Below, piece by piece: positions 161 to 8,139 of a stretch of 64,000 nucleotides of DNA. Numbering within the stretch: the stretch's first letter is position 1; each line of letters begins with the position of its first letter. Under the pieces are notes generated by a model. It searched no databases and was not told where the DNA came from. It saw only the letters and a program-made list of their open reading frames with translations. The stretch is from Alteracholeplasma palmae J233. Lineage in GTDB: Bacteria; Bacillota_I; Bacilli_A; Acholeplasmatales; Acholeplasmataceae. A program made the translations under genes and the position numbers. The DNA lies in contig NC_022538.1 in assembly GCF_000968055.1 (NCBI RefSeq), forward strand, positions 496,001-560,000. The letters run 5' to 3'.

Positions 161-3100
161 ATGACAAATTACGAATTATATTTAAATAAAGATAAAGAAG
201 CATTAGAAAAATTAGCTATAGATCATAATAGCAGTGAAGCCTATATATATCTAGGACTCATACATCATGACGGAAATGGAGTACCTTTAGATTTATATAA
301 AGCCAAAGAATATTTTCAACAAAGTTATATGATAGATGAAAACCCTAAATCAATTTACTATATTGGATGGATGACAGAACTTGGAATAGGGGTTGAACCT
401 AATTACAATCTTGCTAGTCAATATTATGAAAAAGCCTTTGAAGGATTATTAAAAGAAGCTGATAATGGTGATGCAGTTAGCCAATATATTATGAGTATTT
501 ATTTTGAAAATGGACTTGCAATGGTCGAAAAAAATTTAGAACTTGCTTATGAATATTGTGAGAAAGCAGCTCATAATAATTTCAGCATTGCACAAGTTGT
601 TTTAGGTTATTATCATAGAGAAGGTATCTCAACAGAAAAAAATGATGATATTGCTTTTTACTGGTATGAAAAAGCAGCAGAACATAAAACTCCTGTAGCA
701 TTATATAATCTAGCTATGTGCTATCAATATGGCATGGGAACTGATGAAAACTTAAGCCAATCCTTTGAATTATTAAAAGATGCAGCAGCTAATAATCATA
801 TTAGTTCACAAGTAGAATTAGCAAGATTTTATTTTTACGGTATTGGCACAACAAAAGATACAAAATTAGGACTTTATTGGTATGAAAAAGCATCAGATGC
901 TAATAATGTTTATGCATGCAATGCATTAGGCTATTTTTATGAAAATGGAATTGAAGTGGAACAAAACAGTGACTCAGCTTTCTATTGGTATGAAAGAGCT
1001 GCTCAGTATGGTTACCCACCAGCAGTGTTTAGTATAGCGTATTACTATGATTATGGAATTTCTGTTGCTGAAGATAAGGAAAAAGCTTTTAATTTTTATA
1101 AAGAGGCTGCAGAAAAAGAATATGCACCAGCACAATATAATTTAGCAGATTTTTATCGCAATGGAATTTTTGTAGAAAAAAATATGACAGAAGCAATTTA
1201 TTGGTATGAAAAAGCAGCTGAAAAAGAATATACAAGAGCCTATATTGCACTAGGTTACATTTATGAAGAAGGAATTAGTGTTGAATCAGATTTACAAAAA
1301 GCTACTCATTATTACTACGAAGCTGCCACAAGAGAAGATGCTGCAGGTCAAGTCAACTTAGGGTATTGTTATGAAGTTGGAATGGGTGTTGAACAAAATT
1401 ACGAACAAGCAGCTTACTGGTATGAAAAAGCAGCTGAAAAAGGACACCCTAGAGCTTTAAATAACTTAGGTTATTTATATGAAATAGGCTATGGTGTTGG
1501 GCAAAGTAACGTCAAAGCATTTGAATATTATGAACAAAGTGCTCATGCAGGATTTACTTTAGGAAAGTATAACTTAGGGATTGCTTATGAGTATGGATTG
1601 AATGGTGAAAAAAGCATGGAAAATGCTTTTTATTGGTACGAACAAGCGGCCAATGATAACTATATTCCAGCAGTTAATAGCTTAGCGTACTGTTATGAAT
1701 ATGGATATGGAATAGAAAAAAACGAAGAGCTAGCTTTTAAAAATTATGAAAGAGCAGCTAAAGAAGGCTATGTTGCCGCTAAAACTAATTTAGCAGATTG
1801 TTATCGCTATGGTGTATATGTTGAAAAAGACTTAGAACAAGCAGTTTATTGGTATGAACAAGCAGCAAACGATAACTCTGGTAGAGCTTGTTCAATCCTT
1901 GGTTATTTTTATTCAAATGGTATTTATTTTGAACAGGATCATAATAAAGCATTTGAATACTATACAAAAGGTGCAGAACTTGGATACACATACGCTCAAT
2001 CGAATCTAGCTGCATGCTATTCTGATGGTGAAGGAACAGAAGTAGATGTAGAAAAGGCAATTTATTGGTATGAAAAAGCAATCGAACAAGGCAATGACAC
2101 AGCTTATAATAACCTTGCGATTATATACGAACTAGGAAGACACAACGGAACACCAGATTTAGAAAAAGCATTAGTCTTGTTTAAAGAAGCTGCTAAATTA
2201 GGTGATCCTATAGCTAAAACTAATATAGGGGTTTTCTATGAATTTGGAAAAGGTGTTGAAATAGACTATGTTGAAGCACATAAATGGTACATAGAAGCAG
2301 CCGAAGCAGATGATGGAAAAGCACAATATAACCTAGGGCAACTCTATACTTATGGAAAAGGCGTTGAAATAGATTATGATAAAGCAATAGATTGGTATCT
2401 TGCTTCTGCAAATAACGGATATATATCAGCATATGTTAGTTTAGGATTTATGCATGATAGAGGTTATGGTGTTGAACAATCTCATGAAAAAGCCTATGAT
2501 TTTTATAAAATAGCAGCTTTATTTGATAATGAAGTAGCGCAACATAACATTGGACATATGTATGATAAAGGAATAGTTGTAGAGCAAGATTACCAACAGG
2601 CACTTTATTGGTATGAGAAAGCAGCAGCCCAAAAGTATCCATCTTCTTTACTGAACATAGGCTTCCTTTATGAAGGCGGTTTAGGTGTCGATCAAGACTA
2701 TGAAAAAGCCTATCATTATTATTTAGAAGCCTCAGAGTTGGGAGATCCAATTGCTCAAAGTAATTTAGCTTATTTATTTGAAGTAGGAAGATATGTAGAA
2801 CAAGACTATGAAAAAGCCTTTTATTGGTATGAGCAAAGTGCTTTAAAAAACCACCCAAGAGCACAAAATGCTTTAGGTTATTTATATGAAAAAGGTTATG
2901 GAGTTACTAAAGATAAAGAAAAAGCCTTCATTTGGTATGAAAAAGCTGCTCGTAATGGTGATAGAATCGCTCAATACAATCTTGGACTATGTTATGAATA
3001 TTCAAAAGGAGTTACTAAAGATTTTAAACAATCACTATACTGGTATGAACAATCTGCTCAAAAAGGATACCTTGATGCACAATATTCTCTAGGAGAAATA

Positions 3101-4417
3101 TATGAAATAGGTCTTAATGTTAGAGAAGATATCAAACTAGCTTTTAAATGGTATAAAACAGCTGCTGACAATGGATTTGCAAAAGCCCAATACCATGTTG
3201 CATCTATGTATGAAAATAACCGAGGGGTATCTTTTGATCCAAATGAAGTAATTAGATATTATAAACTTTCATCTGATAATGGATATACAGATGCACAAAA
3301 TCAATTAGGACTCTACTATGAATTAGGAAAATATGTAGAACAAAATATGGAAACTGCCTTTGCTCTATATGAAAAAGCAGCCCTTAACAACCATGGTGTT
3401 GCTCAATATAATTTAGCTTTATGTTATCATTATGGAAAAGCAGTAGAAAAAGATATTCAAAAAGCAATCAAATGGTATGAAAAAGCTGCAGACAACGGAT
3501 ATGTTGAAGCATCATTTGCCTTGGGTAAACTTTATGAATATGGTGAAGAAATTAAACAGGATTATATAAAAGCATTTGAAAATCACTTCCAAGCTGCAAT
3601 TAATTATCATGCTGAAGCACAAAATAAAGTTGGTATTTTCTATGAACTTGGTAAAGGTGTTGAAAAGAATTTAGAACAAGCATTTACTTGGTACGAAAAA
3701 TCAGCAACTAATTACTTTTCATATGCTCAGTATAATTTAGCGCTTTGCTATGAATACGGAAAAGGAACTGAAAAAAATCTAAAAGAAGCATTACATTGGT
3801 ATCATAGAGCAGCTGATGCAGGGCATATGGATGCACAATATCAAGTAGCAACTATGTTTGAATATGGAGTAGAAACTGAACCTAATTTAGAAGAAGCACT
3901 AAAATACTATCTGAAAGCTTCCGAAAAAGGTCATGCTGAGGCACAAAATAAAGTTGGATTATTTTATGAATTAGGAATTACAGTAGAACCTAATTTAGAA
4001 CAAGCATTTACTTGGTATGAAAAATCAGCTAATGAGGGATATACAGTTGCTCAATATAACCTAGCATTATGCTATGAATACGCAAAAGGAACTCCTAAAA
4101 ACTTAGAACAAGCTTTAAAATGGTATGAACAAGCTGCTCATAATCAATATGCAGCATCTCAAAATAAACTAGGCTTATTCTATGAATTAGGAATAGCTGT
4201 TAATGAAAATATGGAAGAAGCATTCAAGTGGTATCAATTAGCAGCAAAAAATGGTGATGCAATCGCACAATATAATCTATCACTTTGCTATGAATATGCA
4301 AAAGGGACTACAAAAGATTTAAACCAAGCTTTAAAATGGCTAGAAGAAAGTGCTTCTAATAATTATGAAAATGCTATAAGTAAGTTAGAAGAATTCAAAA
4401 ATAATCACTTAAAATAA
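161..4417 (+). CDS. Giant Sel1-like (TPR-related) repeat protein, 1418 aa
   Basis: Nearly the whole protein is an uninterrupted array of roughly 38 Sel1-like repeats of about 36 residues, each a helix-turn-helix unit of the form A-x-x-x-L-G-x-x-Y-E-x-G-x-G-V-x-x-D/N, with the recurring phrase 'A.YWYEKAA'. Sel1 repeats form a superhelical solenoid used as a protein-protein interaction scaffold. No signal peptide or membrane segment is visible, so it is probably cytoplasmic. The start at 161 is supported by GGAG about ten bases upstream. It seems monocistronic: a terminator lies before it and topA has its own promoter after it. Most Sel1 proteins carry far fewer repeats, so the length is unusual. 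The binding partner is unknown. Confidence 0.9.
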   Translation: MTNYELYLNKDKEALEKLAIDHNSSEAYIYLGLIHHDGNGVPLDLYKAKEYFQQSYMIDENPKSIYYIGWMTELGIGVEPNYNLASQYYEKAFEGLLKEADNGDAVSQYIMSIYFENGLAMVEKNLELAYEYCEKAAHNNFSIAQVVLGYYHREGISTEKNDDIAFYWYEKAAEHKTPVALYNLAMCYQYGMGTDENLSQSFELLKDAAANNHISSQVELARFYFYGIGTTKDTKLGLYWYEKASDANNVYACNALGYFYENGIEVEQNSDSAFYWYERAAQYGYPPAVFSIAYYYDYGISVAEDKEKAFNFYKEAAEKEYAPAQYNLADFYRNGIFVEKNMTEAIYWYEKAAEKEYTRAYIALGYIYEEGISVESDLQKATHYYYEAATREDAAGQVNLGYCYEVGMGVEQNYEQAAYWYEKAAEKGHPRALNNLGYLYEIGYGVGQSNVKAFEYYEQSAHAGFTLGKYNLGIAYEYGLNGEKSMENAFYWYEQAANDNYIPAVNSLAYCYEYGYGIEKNEELAFKNYERAAKEGYVAAKTNLADCYRYGVYVEKDLEQAVYWYEQAANDNSGRACSILGYFYSNGIYFEQDHNKAFEYYTKGAELGYTYAQSNLAACYSDGEGTEVDVEKAIYWYEKAIEQGNDTAYNNLAIIYELGRHNGTPDLEKALVLFKEAAKLGDPIAKTNIGVFYEFGKGVEIDYVEAHKWYIEAAEADDGKAQYNLGQLYTYGKGVEIDYDKAIDWYLASANNGYISAYVSLGFMHDRGYGVEQSHEKAYDFYKIAALFDNEVAQHNIGHMYDKGIVVEQDYQQALYWYEKAAAQKYPSSLLNIGFLYEGGLGVDQDYEKAYHYYLEASELGDPIAQSNLAYLFEVGRYVEQDYEKAFYWYEQSALKNHPRAQNALGYLYEKGYGVTKDKEKAFIWYEKAARNGDRIAQYNLGLCYEYSKGVTKDFKQSLYWYEQSAQKGYLDAQYSLGEIYEIGLNVREDIKLAFKWYKTAADNGFAKAQYHVASMYENNRGVSFDPNEVIRYYKLSSDNGYTDAQNQLGLYYELGKYVEQNMETAFALYEKAALNNHGVAQYNLALCYHYGKAVEKDIQKAIKWYEKAADNGYVEASFALGKLYEYGEEIKQDYIKAFENHFQAAINYHAEAQNKVGIFYELGKGVEKNLEQAFTWYEKSATNYFSYAQYNLALCYEYGKGTEKNLKEALHWYHRAADAGHMDAQYQVATMFEYGVETEPNLEEALKYYLKASEKGHAEAQNKVGLFYELGITVEPNLEQAFTWYEKSANEGYTVAQYNLALCYEYAKGTPKNLEQALKWYEQAAHNQYAASQNKLGLFYELGIAVNENMEEAFKWYQLAAKNGDAIAQYNLSLCYEYAKGTTKDLNQALKWLEESASNNYENAISKLEEFKNNHLK

Positions 4418-4511: not shown

Positions 4512-4547
4512 TAAATGGTATTAAAAACTAAACAAGGAGGTATTTTT

Positions 4548-6380
4548 ATGGCAGATAAAGTCATTATTGTGGAATCTCCATCTAAATCTAAAACAATTAG
4601 TAGTTACTTTGATAATAAGGTAACCGTATTATCTTCAAAAGGGCATATTAGAGATTTGGCTATTAGTGGGCCAGGTGGACTAGGAATCGATGTTGAAAAT
4701 GGATTTATGCCTATGTACCAAGTTATTAAAGGTAAAACGGTATTAGTTAAAGATCTTATTAAACAAACAAAAGGTAAAGAAGTTTATCTTGCAACCGACC
4801 CGGACCGTGAAGGTGAAGCAATTGCTTGGCATTTAGCACAAGTATTAAATTTAGATGTTACACAAAAAAATCGTGTTATTTTTAGAGAAATCACAAAACC
4901 AGCTGTCTTAAAGGCAATCCAAGAACCATCAGTTATTGATGAACCTTTAGTTGAGTCACAAGAAACAAGAAGAATGCTTGATAGAATTATAGGATTTAAA
5001 CTATCTAGTTTATTACAAAAAAAGATAAAATCTAAATCAGCAGGACGTGTACAATCCGTTGCCTTAAAATTAATTGTAGACTTAGAAAAAGAACGCGATG
5101 CGTTTGTCCCAGAAGAATATCATACAATCACAGCAGAATTTCAAAACTTTAAAGCAGATTATATTATTAAAAAAGACTATAAGATTAAAGCAGAAGAAGC
5201 TAAAAGAATCGTAGATGGATCAACAAATCCATTTACAGTTTCTAAGGTAGAAAAAAAGGAAAACAAAAGAAAAGCAAAACAACCTTTTACAACATCCACA
5301 TTACAACAAGATGCAATTAATAATCTATCTATGTCATCTAGTAGAACAATGAGCGTTGCTCAAAGTTTATATGAAGGTATTGAAATTGAGGGAGAACATG
5401 TAGGGTTAATTACTTATATGAGAACGGATTCTACAAGACTTTCAGATATTTTTGTTACAGAAACACAAGACTTTATTAAAAACTATTTTGGAAAAGAGTA
5501 CCTAGGCGAATATAAAGTTAAAAAAAGTGATAATGCTCAAGATGCCCATGAAGGAATTAGACCTACAAGTGTTTTAAGAACACCTGAATCAGTAGAACAA
5601 TACTTATCAAAAGATGAGTTTAAACTCTATCAAAGAATTTATCAAAGAGCAGTTTCAAGCTTAATGTCTGATGCAGTATTTAGTCAAACGAAAGTAACCC
5701 TTACAACTAACGGATATGATTATTTAGCAGAAGGTGTTATCAGAATGTTTCCAGGATATCAAAAATTATTTGATGATAGTGCAAAAGATAAACTGCTTCC
5801 TGATATAAAAGAAAATGAAACGTATAATGCTAAGAAAGTAGAGGCTACACAAAAGTTTACTACGCCACCTGCAAGGTTCTCAGAAGCAACCCTGATTAAA
5901 GAATTAGAAAAATTAGGAATAGGTAGACCTTCTACGTATGCTCAAATTATTAAAACCTTAAAAGATCGCTTATATGTTGAATTAGAAGAGAAAAGATTTA
6001 AACCAACTAAACAAGGTATTTTAACTTCTGATAAATTAACAGAATTCTTTAGTAACATTATCAATGTTGAATATACATCTAATATGGAAAAAGAATTAGA
6101 TGAGATTGCTGAACATAAAGTGAATGGTAAAGTATTATTAAAAGACTTTTACGATCGCTTTATTCCAACTCTAGAGTTAGCTGATCAAAAAATGGAAAAA
6201 ATTGGGCCAGAAGTAACAGATAAGATTTGTCCTTTATGTGGGCACCAATTAGTTATTAGAAGGAGTAAACATGGAGAATTCTTAGGTTGCTCTAACTTTC
6301 CTAAATGTAGACATACAGAAAACATAGAGACAAACCCAGAAAATAAAGAAATAATTGAAGAAAATAAACAAAATGAATAA
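4548..6380 (+). CDS. topA: DNA topoisomerase I (type IA)
   Basis: This 610-residue enzyme relaxes negatively supercoiled DNA through a 5'-phosphotyrosyl intermediate. The N-terminal Toprim domain shows the E in VIIVESPSKSKT and the DPDRE metal motif. The catalytic tyrosine is Tyr290 in TYMRTDS. The C-terminus has a single four-cysteine zinc ribbon (CPLCG...GCSNFPKC), whereas many bacterial homologues have several. ATG 4548 is chosen because AAGGAGG lies just upstream and because the consensus promoter would start transcription after the more upstream in-frame ATG at 4515. It has its own promoter, and a long structured intergenic region follows it. Confidence 0.96.
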   Translation: MADKVIIVESPSKSKTISSYFDNKVTVLSSKGHIRDLAISGPGGLGIDVENGFMPMYQVIKGKTVLVKDLIKQTKGKEVYLATDPDREGEAIAWHLAQVLNLDVTQKNRVIFREITKPAVLKAIQEPSVIDEPLVESQETRRMLDRIIGFKLSSLLQKKIKSKSAGRVQSVALKLIVDLEKERDAFVPEEYHTITAEFQNFKADYIIKKDYKIKAEEAKRIVDGSTNPFTVSKVEKKENKRKAKQPFTTSTLQQDAINNLSMSSSRTMSVAQSLYEGIEIEGEHVGLITYMRTDSTRLSDIFVTETQDFIKNYFGKEYLGEYKVKKSDNAQDAHEGIRPTSVLRTPESVEQYLSKDEFKLYQRIYQRAVSSLMSDAVFSQTKVTLTTNGYDYLAEGVIRMFPGYQKLFDDSAKDKLLPDIKENETYNAKKVEATQKFTTPPARFSEATLIKELEKLGIGRPSTYAQIIKTLKDRLYVELEEKRFKPTKQGILTSDKLTEFFSNIINVEYTSNMEKELDEIAEHKVNGKVLLKDFYDRFIPTLELADQKMEKIGPEVTDKICPLCGHQLVIRRSKHGEFLGCSNFPKCRHTENIETNPENKEIIEENKQNE

Positions 6381-6397: not shown

Positions 6398-6426
6398 TTT
6401 ACAAATTAAATTAAACATGTTATCAT
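6398..6426 (+). promoter_or_regulatory. Putative promoter of a small RNA
   Basis: TTTACA (6398-6403), a 17-base spacer and TATCAT (6421-6426) make a reasonable promoter. The predicted start, near 6432, falls at the foot of the first hairpin of the following structured region. Confidence 0.45.
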
Positions 6427-6431
6427 AACTA

Positions 6432-6536
6432 TGCATCCGTTATTGGATGCTACTTATCCCCTATTAACGTGTACGCGAGTACACAAAATCCCCTTTAATT
6501 TGGTCTTCTAGTCTTTTGCTAGAAGACCTCTTTTTT
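6432..6536 (+). ncRNA. Candidate ~105-nt small RNA with two CCCCT loops
   Basis: The region between topA and tpx has three hairpins in order: GCATCC/GGATGC (6433-6438, 6445-6450), GTGTAC-GCGA-GTACAC with a GNRA-type tetraloop (6469-6484), and a strong terminator (6502-6528 plus T-run). Two unpaired linkers carry the same C-rich element, ATCCCCTATTAA (6456-6467) and ATCCCCTTTAA (6488-6498). Promoter, hairpins and terminator fit a discrete transcript. By analogy, C-rich single-stranded motifs of Firmicute sRNAs such as RsaE pair with Shine-Dalgarno sequences. That function here is inference. The alternative is a leader or attenuator for tpx, but tpx appears to have its own promoter downstream. 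Confidence 0.5.
6502..6536 (+). terminator. Strong intrinsic terminator before tpx
   Basis: GGTCTTCTAG (6502-6511) pairs perfectly with CTAGAAGACC (6519-6528) around a 7-base loop, followed by TCTTTTTT. It ends either topA read-through or the candidate small RNA. Confidence 0.85.
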
Positions 6537-6594: not shown

Positions 6595-7095
6595 ATGAAA
6601 ACATTCAAAGGTAAAAAAATTACTGTTTTAGGAAGTGTAAAAGCAGTTGGTGATATTGCACCAGACTTTACAGTTCTAAATTCAGAATTAGAACCAGCAA
6701 GTTTATCAGACTATAAAGAAAAATATATTGTTTTAAACGTAGTACCTTCACTAGATACTTCAGTTTGTGATTTACAAACAAGAACAGTTAACCAAGAACT
6801 TGCAGATAATAAAGATACTTTAGTACTAACAATTAGTAATGATTTACCATTTGCACAAAGCAGATGGTGTGGTAACTCAGGAATTGATAATGTAATTACT
6901 TTAAGTGATTATAAAGATTTAGACTTTGCAAATAAATATGGTGTTCTAATTGAAGAAAATAGATTACTTGCACGTGCAATCTTTGTTCTAAATGAAAAAA
7001 GAGAAATTATTTATTTAGAATATCTAGATGAAATGGGAAAACACCCTAATTATGATTCATTAATCGAATTTATGAAAAACTTACCAGAAGCTTAA
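6595..7095 (+). CDS. tpx: Thiol peroxidase (Tpx, atypical 2-Cys peroxiredoxin)
   Basis: This 166-residue cytoplasmic peroxidase reduces H2O2 and alkyl hydroperoxides with electrons from thioredoxin. The peroxidatic Cys58 lies in PSLDTSVCD and the resolving Cys92 in SRWCG, close to the usual Tpx spacing. Length matches the family. The start is ATG 6595, with AAAGGA upstream; an in-frame ATG at 6562 overlaps the -10 element and would add an unlikely N-terminal extension. It appears to be transcribed alone, between the terminator at 6502 and the one overlapping its own 3' end. Confidence 0.95.
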   Translation: MKTFKGKKITVLGSVKAVGDIAPDFTVLNSELEPASLSDYKEKYIVLNVVPSLDTSVCDLQTRTVNQELADNKDTLVLTISNDLPFAQSRWCGNSGIDNVITLSDYKDLDFANKYGVLIEENRLLARAIFVLNEKREIIYLEYLDEMGKHPNYDSLIEFMKNLPEA

Positions 7096-7182: not shown

Positions 7183-8139
7183 ATGGGGTTTTTTAGTAAA
7201 CTATTTAAAAAGAAACCAAAAAATGAAAAATATGAATTAGGATTACACAAATCAAGAGAAAGTTTTGATAACCTAAAAAAATTATTAGAAGAATCACCTA
7301 AAATAGATGAAGATTTATATGAAGCATTAGAAGACTTATTTATACAAGCTGATATAGGTGTTGAAACAGTTATTTACTTTGTTAATGAAATTAGAAAAGA
7401 AGTAGATCTTAAAAATATTACTCAACCTATGGACTTATCTGAGCTTATAGTTGATAAGATGTTTGAACTATACTTAAAGGGTGAATTTGTTGATACAACT
7501 TTAAAATATGATGAAAATGAACTGAATGTCTACTTATTTGTAGGTGTGAATGGCGTGGGTAAAACTACGAGCATTGGTAAACTTGCAAAACAATTTAAAA
7601 ACCAAGGCAAAAAAGTGATGCTTGTTGCTGGAGATACATTCAGAGCAGGAGCTATTGATCAACTCATTGAATGGGGTAAACGTAGTGATACGTATGTTTA
7701 CTACAAAGAGGCAATGTCAGACCCATCTAGTGTTATTTTTGATGCTTTAAAAATTGCTCAAGATGAAAAGTATGATATCGTTTTATGCGACACTGCAGGT
7801 AGATTACAAAATAAAGCTAACTTAATGAATGAACTAGCTAAAATGAAGCGTGTCATTGAAAGAGTTCTACCAACAGGACTTAAAGAAACGCTACTTGTAA
7901 TAGATGCGACAACCGGACAAAACGGAATGAACCAAGCAGCTGTTTTTAACGAAATAACAGAGGTTACAGGTATTGTCTTAACTAAGTTAGATGGAACAGC
8001 TAAAGGCGGCATTGTACTAGCAATAAGACATTTATATGGGTTACCAATTAAATATGTTGGGCTCGGTGAAAAAATAGATGATTTAATCTCATTTGATATT
8101 GAAGAATATATATATGGATTATTTAAAGGTTTCTTTTAA
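7183..8139 (+). CDS. ftsY: Signal recognition particle receptor FtsY
   Basis: This SRP-type GTPase receives Ffh-bound ribosomes at the membrane. The 318 residues contain an N-terminal four-helix N domain (about 1-105) and a G domain with GVNGVGKTTS (G1), DTAGR (G3) and TKLDG (G4). The acidic N-terminal A domain of E. coli FtsY is missing, as is common in Gram-positive relatives; a short basic amphipathic start (FFSKLFKKKPK) may contact the membrane. GGAG precedes the ATG. A TATAAT at 7153-7158 probably starts the ftsY-ylxM-ffh unit. The stop codon overlaps the ylxM start by one base. Confidence 0.96.
   Translation: MGFFSKLFKKKPKNEKYELGLHKSRESFDNLKKLLEESPKIDEDLYEALEDLFIQADIGVETVIYFVNEIRKEVDLKNITQPMDLSELIVDKMFELYLKGEFVDTTLKYDENELNVYLFVGVNGVGKTTSIGKLAKQFKNQGKKVMLVAGDTFRAGAIDQLIEWGKRSDTYVYYKEAMSDPSSVIFDALKIAQDEKYDIVLCDTAGRLQNKANLMNELAKMKRVIERVLPTGLKETLLVIDATTGQNGMNQAAVFNEITEVTGIVLTKLDGTAKGGIVLAIRHLYGLPIKYVGLGEKIDDLISFDIEEYIYGLFKGFF

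Follow-up and report, generated by a model that had tools for sequence, protein, structure and literature searches.

A conserved C-rich small RNA predicted behind topA in Acholeplasmataceae, with linkers that may pair with Shine-Dalgarno sequences

RsaE/RoxS of Staphylococcus and Bacillus (RF01820), whose expression is under ResDE/SrrAB and nitric oxide control, is a small RNA of about 110 nt with a strong terminator, a CCCC motif that occurs twice and several C-rich regions left unpaired, and is presumed to block Shine-Dalgarno sequences. RoxS carries CCCCUUUGUU twice, its C-rich region 3 keeps 30S subunits from binding ppnKB mRNA, and C-rich regions are also found in predicted single strands of FsrA and CsfG of Bacillus (PMC4409812). 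LhrC (RF00616), which is multicopy in Listeria, has UCCC motifs in single strands and pairs with Shine-Dalgarno sequences. We have found that a locus without annotation in the 64,000-nt stretch of Alteracholeplasma palmae J233 DNA analysed here (the window), lying between topA and tpx, is predicted to encode an RNA that is like RsaE/RoxS in its length, unpaired C-rich regions, doubled CCCC motif, strong terminator and presumed Shine-Dalgarno blocking, like FsrA and CsfG in its C-rich predicted single strands, and like LhrC in its motifs and presumed pairing and, in part of the family, in occurring in several copies per genome.

The RNA nevertheless differs from RsaE/RoxS in having three separate hairpins and exactly two C-rich linkers, with cores ACUUAUCCCCUA and CA(C/A)AUCCCCUU, in its topA-ftsY locus and in its phylogenetic range. 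The RF01820 model scores it at 14.6 bits (E 3), below the cut-off of 79, exceeds that cut-off in 0 of 88 Acholeplasmataceae genomes and 0 of 395 class genomes (a B. subtilis control was positive), and reaches at best 25.1 bits among relatives (L388); the CCCCUUUGUU element, expected twice in a member of RsaE/RoxS, is absent from the window linkers. This score and this absence leave membership in RsaE/RoxS unsupported. The first-pass annotation, made from the letters of the window without database searches, had proposed a C-rich base-pairing RNA of the RsaE type; the signature that it described (hairpins, CCCC linkers, promoter and terminator) stands, but the assignment to RsaE/RoxS is not supported. 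LhrC differs in structure and loci, and its model finds no match in the window and at best 27.4 bits elsewhere (L388) against a cut-off of 110, while FsrA and CsfG, which lie at other loci, are set apart by locus and by an Rfam scan of the window alone, in which neither matched. No family of Rfam 15 exceeded its gathering score in the window, or at the RNA in distant relatives. Because the RsaE/RoxS and LhrC models reject it, we assign the RNA to a new family among the C-rich antisense RNAs, one that would resemble RsaE/RoxS-type RNAs in the outline of its action. A search of open-licence papers found none describing it, and a survey of structured RNAs with an Acholeplasma motif reports a uORF motif before aroF and nothing at topA (PMC8632094). 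Regulation after transcription has scarcely been explored in Acholeplasma and related bacteria, and Rfam holds no entry for this RNA, which would add a further widely conserved C-rich antisense-type RNA, distinct from RsaE/RoxS by covariance models. Being one conserved gene in a syntenic place, with its seeds defined, it offers a ready handle. The parts of the locus in the window are as follows.

4515..6380, + strand: topA, type I DNA topoisomerase (TIGR01051, 690 bits), the conserved upstream neighbour
6398..6426, + strand: promoter, with -35 TTTACA at 6398-6403, a 17 nt spacer and an extended -10 TGt-TATCAT at 6418-6426
6432..6536, + strand: small RNA, predicted at about 104 nt, from a start site near 6432 to the end of the T run near 6535
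6433..6450, + strand: hairpin 1, GCATCCG-TTAT-TGGATGC, at or adjoining the 5' end
6451..6468, + strand: linker 1, TACTTATCCCCTATTAAC, single-stranded, presumed seed
6469..6484, + strand: hairpin 2, GTGTAC-GCGA-GTACAC
6485..6501, + strand: linker 2, AAAATCCCCTTTAATTT, single-stranded, presumed seed, pairing with tdk start regions in relatives
6502..6536, + strand: intrinsic terminator, an 11 bp stem and T run
6595..7095, + strand: tpx, thiol peroxidase (NF001808, 208.7 bits), the downstream neighbour, not in all relatives
7183..8139, + strand: ftsY, the next gene in the window, directly after the RNA in distant families

The topA stop codon lies 51 nt before the start of the unit. Upstream of topA, positions 161-4417 encode a 1418-aa protein that, as read from its sequence, seems to consist almost entirely of Sel1-like repeats.

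Positions 6432-6536 are predicted to form three hairpins with two single-stranded UCCCC linkers between them, at a stability of -35.3 kcal/mol for the 104-nt RNA; shuffled sequences average -13.6 (z -7.65; 0 of 200 shuffles as stable). A blastn search of the 88 Acholeplasmataceae genomes with a query of 161 bases gave strong matches, of which 30 were read and 29 distinct ones aligned, and RNAalifold returned the identical structure from this alignment unprompted, with compensatory changes in 17 of 23 pairs; 0 of 500 shuffles reached the observed covariation counts, and pairing collapsed when partners were slid. An alignment of 58 sequences, which was fitted to the model and is thus biased towards it, whereas that of 29 was not, has compensatory change at 22 of 23 pairs and 97% pairing, against 30-55% in slid structures. 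Within it, helix 1 shows both-sided changes at 6/6 pairs (98% paired) and helix 2 at 5/6 (96.5% paired), and all 11 pairs of the terminator stem covary, its sequence being almost free while pairing is kept. Covariation is alike in 20 further class-level sequences. The two compact hairpins and strong terminator of the first-pass annotation are thereby confirmed at 6433-6450, 6469-6484 and 6502-6536, and its unit of about 105 nt is refined to about 104 nt (~6432 to 6535); the GCGA tetraloop that it singled out is present in the window but carries no weight, since the loop of hairpin 2 varies among homologues.

In the window the two linkers, reading AUCCCCUAUUAA and AUCCCCUUUAA, both contain the proposed repeat and are predicted to be about 90-100% unpaired. 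All 29 aligned homologues have TTATCCCCTA in linker 1 and CCCCT in linker 2, together with a hairpin on either side of linker 1 and a terminator, so that both the conserved covarying hairpins and the conserved CCCCT named at the outset as support were found. The consensus in Acholeplasmataceae is NTGCAUCC-loop-GGAUGC UACUUAUCCCCUAUU GUGUAC-loop-GUACAC AAAAUCCCCUUAA terminator; ACTTATCCCYTA is retained in linker 1 throughout the class, and distant copies share a common plan with cores ACUUAUCCCYUACAUA and CACAUCCCCUUCC. Mean identity is 0.84 and 0.78 in the linkers, equal to the conservation of helices 1 and 2, against 0.53 in the terminator stem, as expected for seeds on a scaffold. These conserved, unpaired C-rich motifs are complementary to Shine-Dalgarno sequences, specifically to AAGGGGAU, a ribosome-site variant before many starts in these genomes, and AAGGGGATA..ATG sites precede many gene starts.

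We therefore favour, with a probability of roughly two in three, a trans-acting and independently transcribed regulatory RNA of a new family, whose linkers would pair with Shine-Dalgarno sites and so cause repression. By comparison among homologues its order is promoter, 5' terminal hairpin, linker 1 (AUCCCCU), hairpin 2, linker 2 (AUCCCCUU) and terminator. Hairpin 2 would keep the two open C-rich linkers apart, and these would pair with the G-rich AAGGGGAU of selected mRNAs, blocking 30S binding and thus translation. It is likely that the RNA acts through pairing with ribosome sites; that the paired mRNAs are repressed is something we infer.

The clearest candidate target over much of the Acholeplasmataceae is the start of tdk (thymidine kinase), which may be reached through linker 2 or linker 1. 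Set against 353 background start regions, the tdk start falls within the top 5% in 25 of 39 genomes, with a median rank of 3.4%. The test is lenient because background start regions were mechanically predicted and pooled over genomes, and the count does not represent independent events because the genomes are related. Pairing exceeds that of 95% of shuffled linkers in 26 of 39 genomes, C-rich RNA being one that pairs with ribosome sites fairly often through composition alone, and the signal persists in 22 of 36 once the three genomes that first drew attention to tdk are set aside. Among nine ortholog groups tdk is the strongest (mean -12.3 kcal/mol, against -6.5 to -7.4 for six groups), and 8 of the 9 AAGGGGATTTTG..ATG sites listed in the 88 genomes and assignable to a gene start belong to tdk, a further listed site, which lies some 300 nt upstream of tdk in G061, falling outside these nine. 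In many genomes of genus g10 tdk starts with AAAGGGGATTTTG..ATG, which is complementary to linker 2 together with the neighbouring arm of hairpin 2, and in G042 there are 14 contiguous pairs (-23.0 kcal/mol); the match runs past CCCC into the flanking letters. In the window's own genome the tdk site is GGGAGG, with weak pairing and a rank of 5.4%. The tdk start lacks pairing with the RNA in G016, G029, G045, G079 and G080, the last three of which have a diverged RNA and ordinary tdk ribosome sites, and genus g14 retains AAGGGG before tdk although the search found no RNA there. Taken together, tdk is the best target lead, fairly strong as a comparative lead and poor in the window's genome; we would put the chance that it is a true target in most carrier genera at about even, and it is a testable one. 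In most Acholeplasmataceae a conserved CACGTTTTTTATT stretch that resembles a terminator precedes the tdk ribosome site (L227-L256), so that tdk may depend on read-through or on a very short leader.

The best site found in the window's own genome is an ABC transporter start near G000:C1:82590 (AAAGGGGATAAGCAGATG, -18.4 kcal/mol), with 10 contiguous pairs to linker 1. The list of about 80 genes with AAGGGGATA..ATG, whose names were read from sequences, hints at nucleotide metabolism (thyA, tdk, nrdF, purA, hpt, guaC and a deoxynucleoside kinase), and of these tdk alone was taken to further tests, in which it stood up. Sites at thyA and purA were seen in only two genomes each. We rejected nrdF as a conserved target, its start sites differing between genera, and matches of the Shine-Dalgarno pattern in rpoB are internal codons.

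The C-rich strands might instead bind a protein or titrate other RNAs, the trans-acting RNA then serving as a sponge or scaffold with no call on ribosome sites. Over 10-13 nt linker 1 hardly varies even in distant families, a constancy greater than a changing set of mRNA targets seems to require; a pair of similar hairpin-held motifs resembles multi-site protein sponges, and the candidate target lists differ between genera. We nonetheless think this improbable: tdk starts pair with the linkers far above background in many genera, and past CCCC, and the RNA lacks GGA loops of the CsrA type. We know of no candidate protein that would bind the linkers.

A covariance model built on the 29 sequences, which scores the window RNA at 102.9 bits, has matches in 47 of 160 genomes of the order, including 42 of the 88 Acholeplasmataceae, with strong homologues in ten genera of that family, and then in more distant families of the class. 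The search of Acholeplasmataceae proposed by the first-pass annotation thus succeeded, while its remark that such an RNA would be unusual in Mollicutes needs rewording, the RNA being widespread in the class and overlooked. A second model, built on 58 sequences, matches 77 of 395 sampled class genomes at E<=0.001 against a chance expectation of about 0.4, in eight families (f1, f2, f4, f9, f12, f16, f19 and f24). Carriers with names include Acholeplasma laidlawii, A. oculi, A. granularum, A. equifetale and Tenericutes bacterium MO-XQ. The covariance search found the RNA in 0 of 29 genomes of genus g11, small genomes that are probably phytoplasmas and appear to have lost it; this apparent loss leaves a loss of targets or of a signal open to study. 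Five core-pattern matches in Bacteroidetes proved to be one coding sequence, and carriers there were rejected. Five genomes of family f16 (G170, G203, G227, G306 and G452) have two or three copies each, with one copy at topA and the rest elsewhere where these were read.

With ftsY located in relatives by tblastn of the window FtsY, members in families f4, f9 and f16 have the order topA, RNA, ftsY, and those in f1 lie between topA and tpx-ftsY or other genes; the kept topA/ftsY neighbourhood in these four families argues for common descent. A chromosomal copy is nearly always close behind topA, which could mean that the RNA is no more than the tail of the topA mRNA, made up of its 3' untranslated region with the terminator, either processed or passive and perhaps protecting that mRNA. 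We find this very unlikely, as a promoter stands at fixed spacing before the RNA, paralogues and recombinase-linked copies away from topA have promoter-like sequences of their own, and of the two exceptions to the topA neighbourhood (L029 and L078) the second, in G142, lies behind a tgt-like gene instead. The promoter-like pair reported at first is present and fits the consensus at 10 of 12 positions; since such a match alone is near chance (14 found in the region, 10.3 expected), it counts as evidence only through conservation, and TTTACA-17-TAWNAT indeed recurs before hairpin 1 with constant spacing in almost every one of 30 relatives, which places the expected start of transcription at the base of that hairpin. 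Terminator-like sites are rarer by chance (4 found, 0.4 expected). In sequence, then, the RNA has the own promoter and intrinsic terminator of C-rich trans-acting small RNAs, and the unit in the window is almost certainly a real, independently transcribed structured RNA. The promoters of three distant relatives (L072, L080 and L084) have a CTTTACAAACGCTTACA-like sequence, resembling a cre (CcpA) site and overlapping the -35, that is not conserved in the window's family, the Acholeplasmataceae.

A cis-acting leader, whether riboswitch or attenuator, of either tpx or the ftsY operon could be imagined from the position of the RNA before tpx in the window and before ftsY elsewhere and from the terminator at its end. 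There is little to recommend it. The gene 3' of the RNA may be tpx, an ABC transporter, a peptidase or ftsY (it is not tpx in L019, L023, L024, L028 and L036), from which the RNA is not the leader of tpx, and unrelated genes follow the mobile copies; the terminator is present in all, and no alternative antiterminator helix is supported. The same change of downstream gene between genomes defeats the opposing suggestion that the region is continuous with tpx mRNA and not conserved. A short protein-coding gene, for which the window genome has 26 codons open from ATG 6431 (ATG CAT CCG ...), can be dismissed: in most relatives the frame runs for only 4-15 codons before a stop, differences in loop length are out of frame, the first codon is not constant, and space for a ribosome site is lacking.

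Lastly, the trans-acting RNA that we favour presents an unusual case, a core small RNA that also travels on recombinase-driven mobile elements. A variant near the f16 type follows a pair of adjacent serine recombinases, about 35-50 nt beyond the second one; the best NCBIfam relatives of these recombinases are CcrB, CcrC and XisF, all under their cut-offs. The copy on the MO-XQ plasmid (CP017949.1 15010-15078, L403) is 97% identical over 69 nt to an f16 copy, and recombinase-linked copies also occur in several class genomes and in four IMG/VR contigs, one with a recombinase that exactly matches that of the plasmid. It is conceivable, if doubtful, that an ancient class-wide regulatory RNA, with a chromosomal role that includes thymidine salvage, was captured by mobile elements that use or mimic a host translation regulator. 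An HTH gene, tandem Ccr-like recombinases and a copy of the RNA occur together at L403, L082, L438, L383, L386, L450, L452 and L454, and the recombinase-RNA module is conserved in plasmid- or virus-classified elements and in chromosomes of different families. An 81.8-kb virus-classified contig (L451 4343-4450, IMGVR_UViG_3300039098_000035) carries the RNA in altered form: the loop of hairpin 2 holds a long insert, and neither a nearby recombinase nor an obvious promoter accompanies it. This copy may be a decoy or a diverged version of the RNA. We also note that tmRNA or tRNA genes lie near mobile-type copies (L384 1893-2238, L386 1819-1901 and L438 1169-1251), as would be expected for integration sites.
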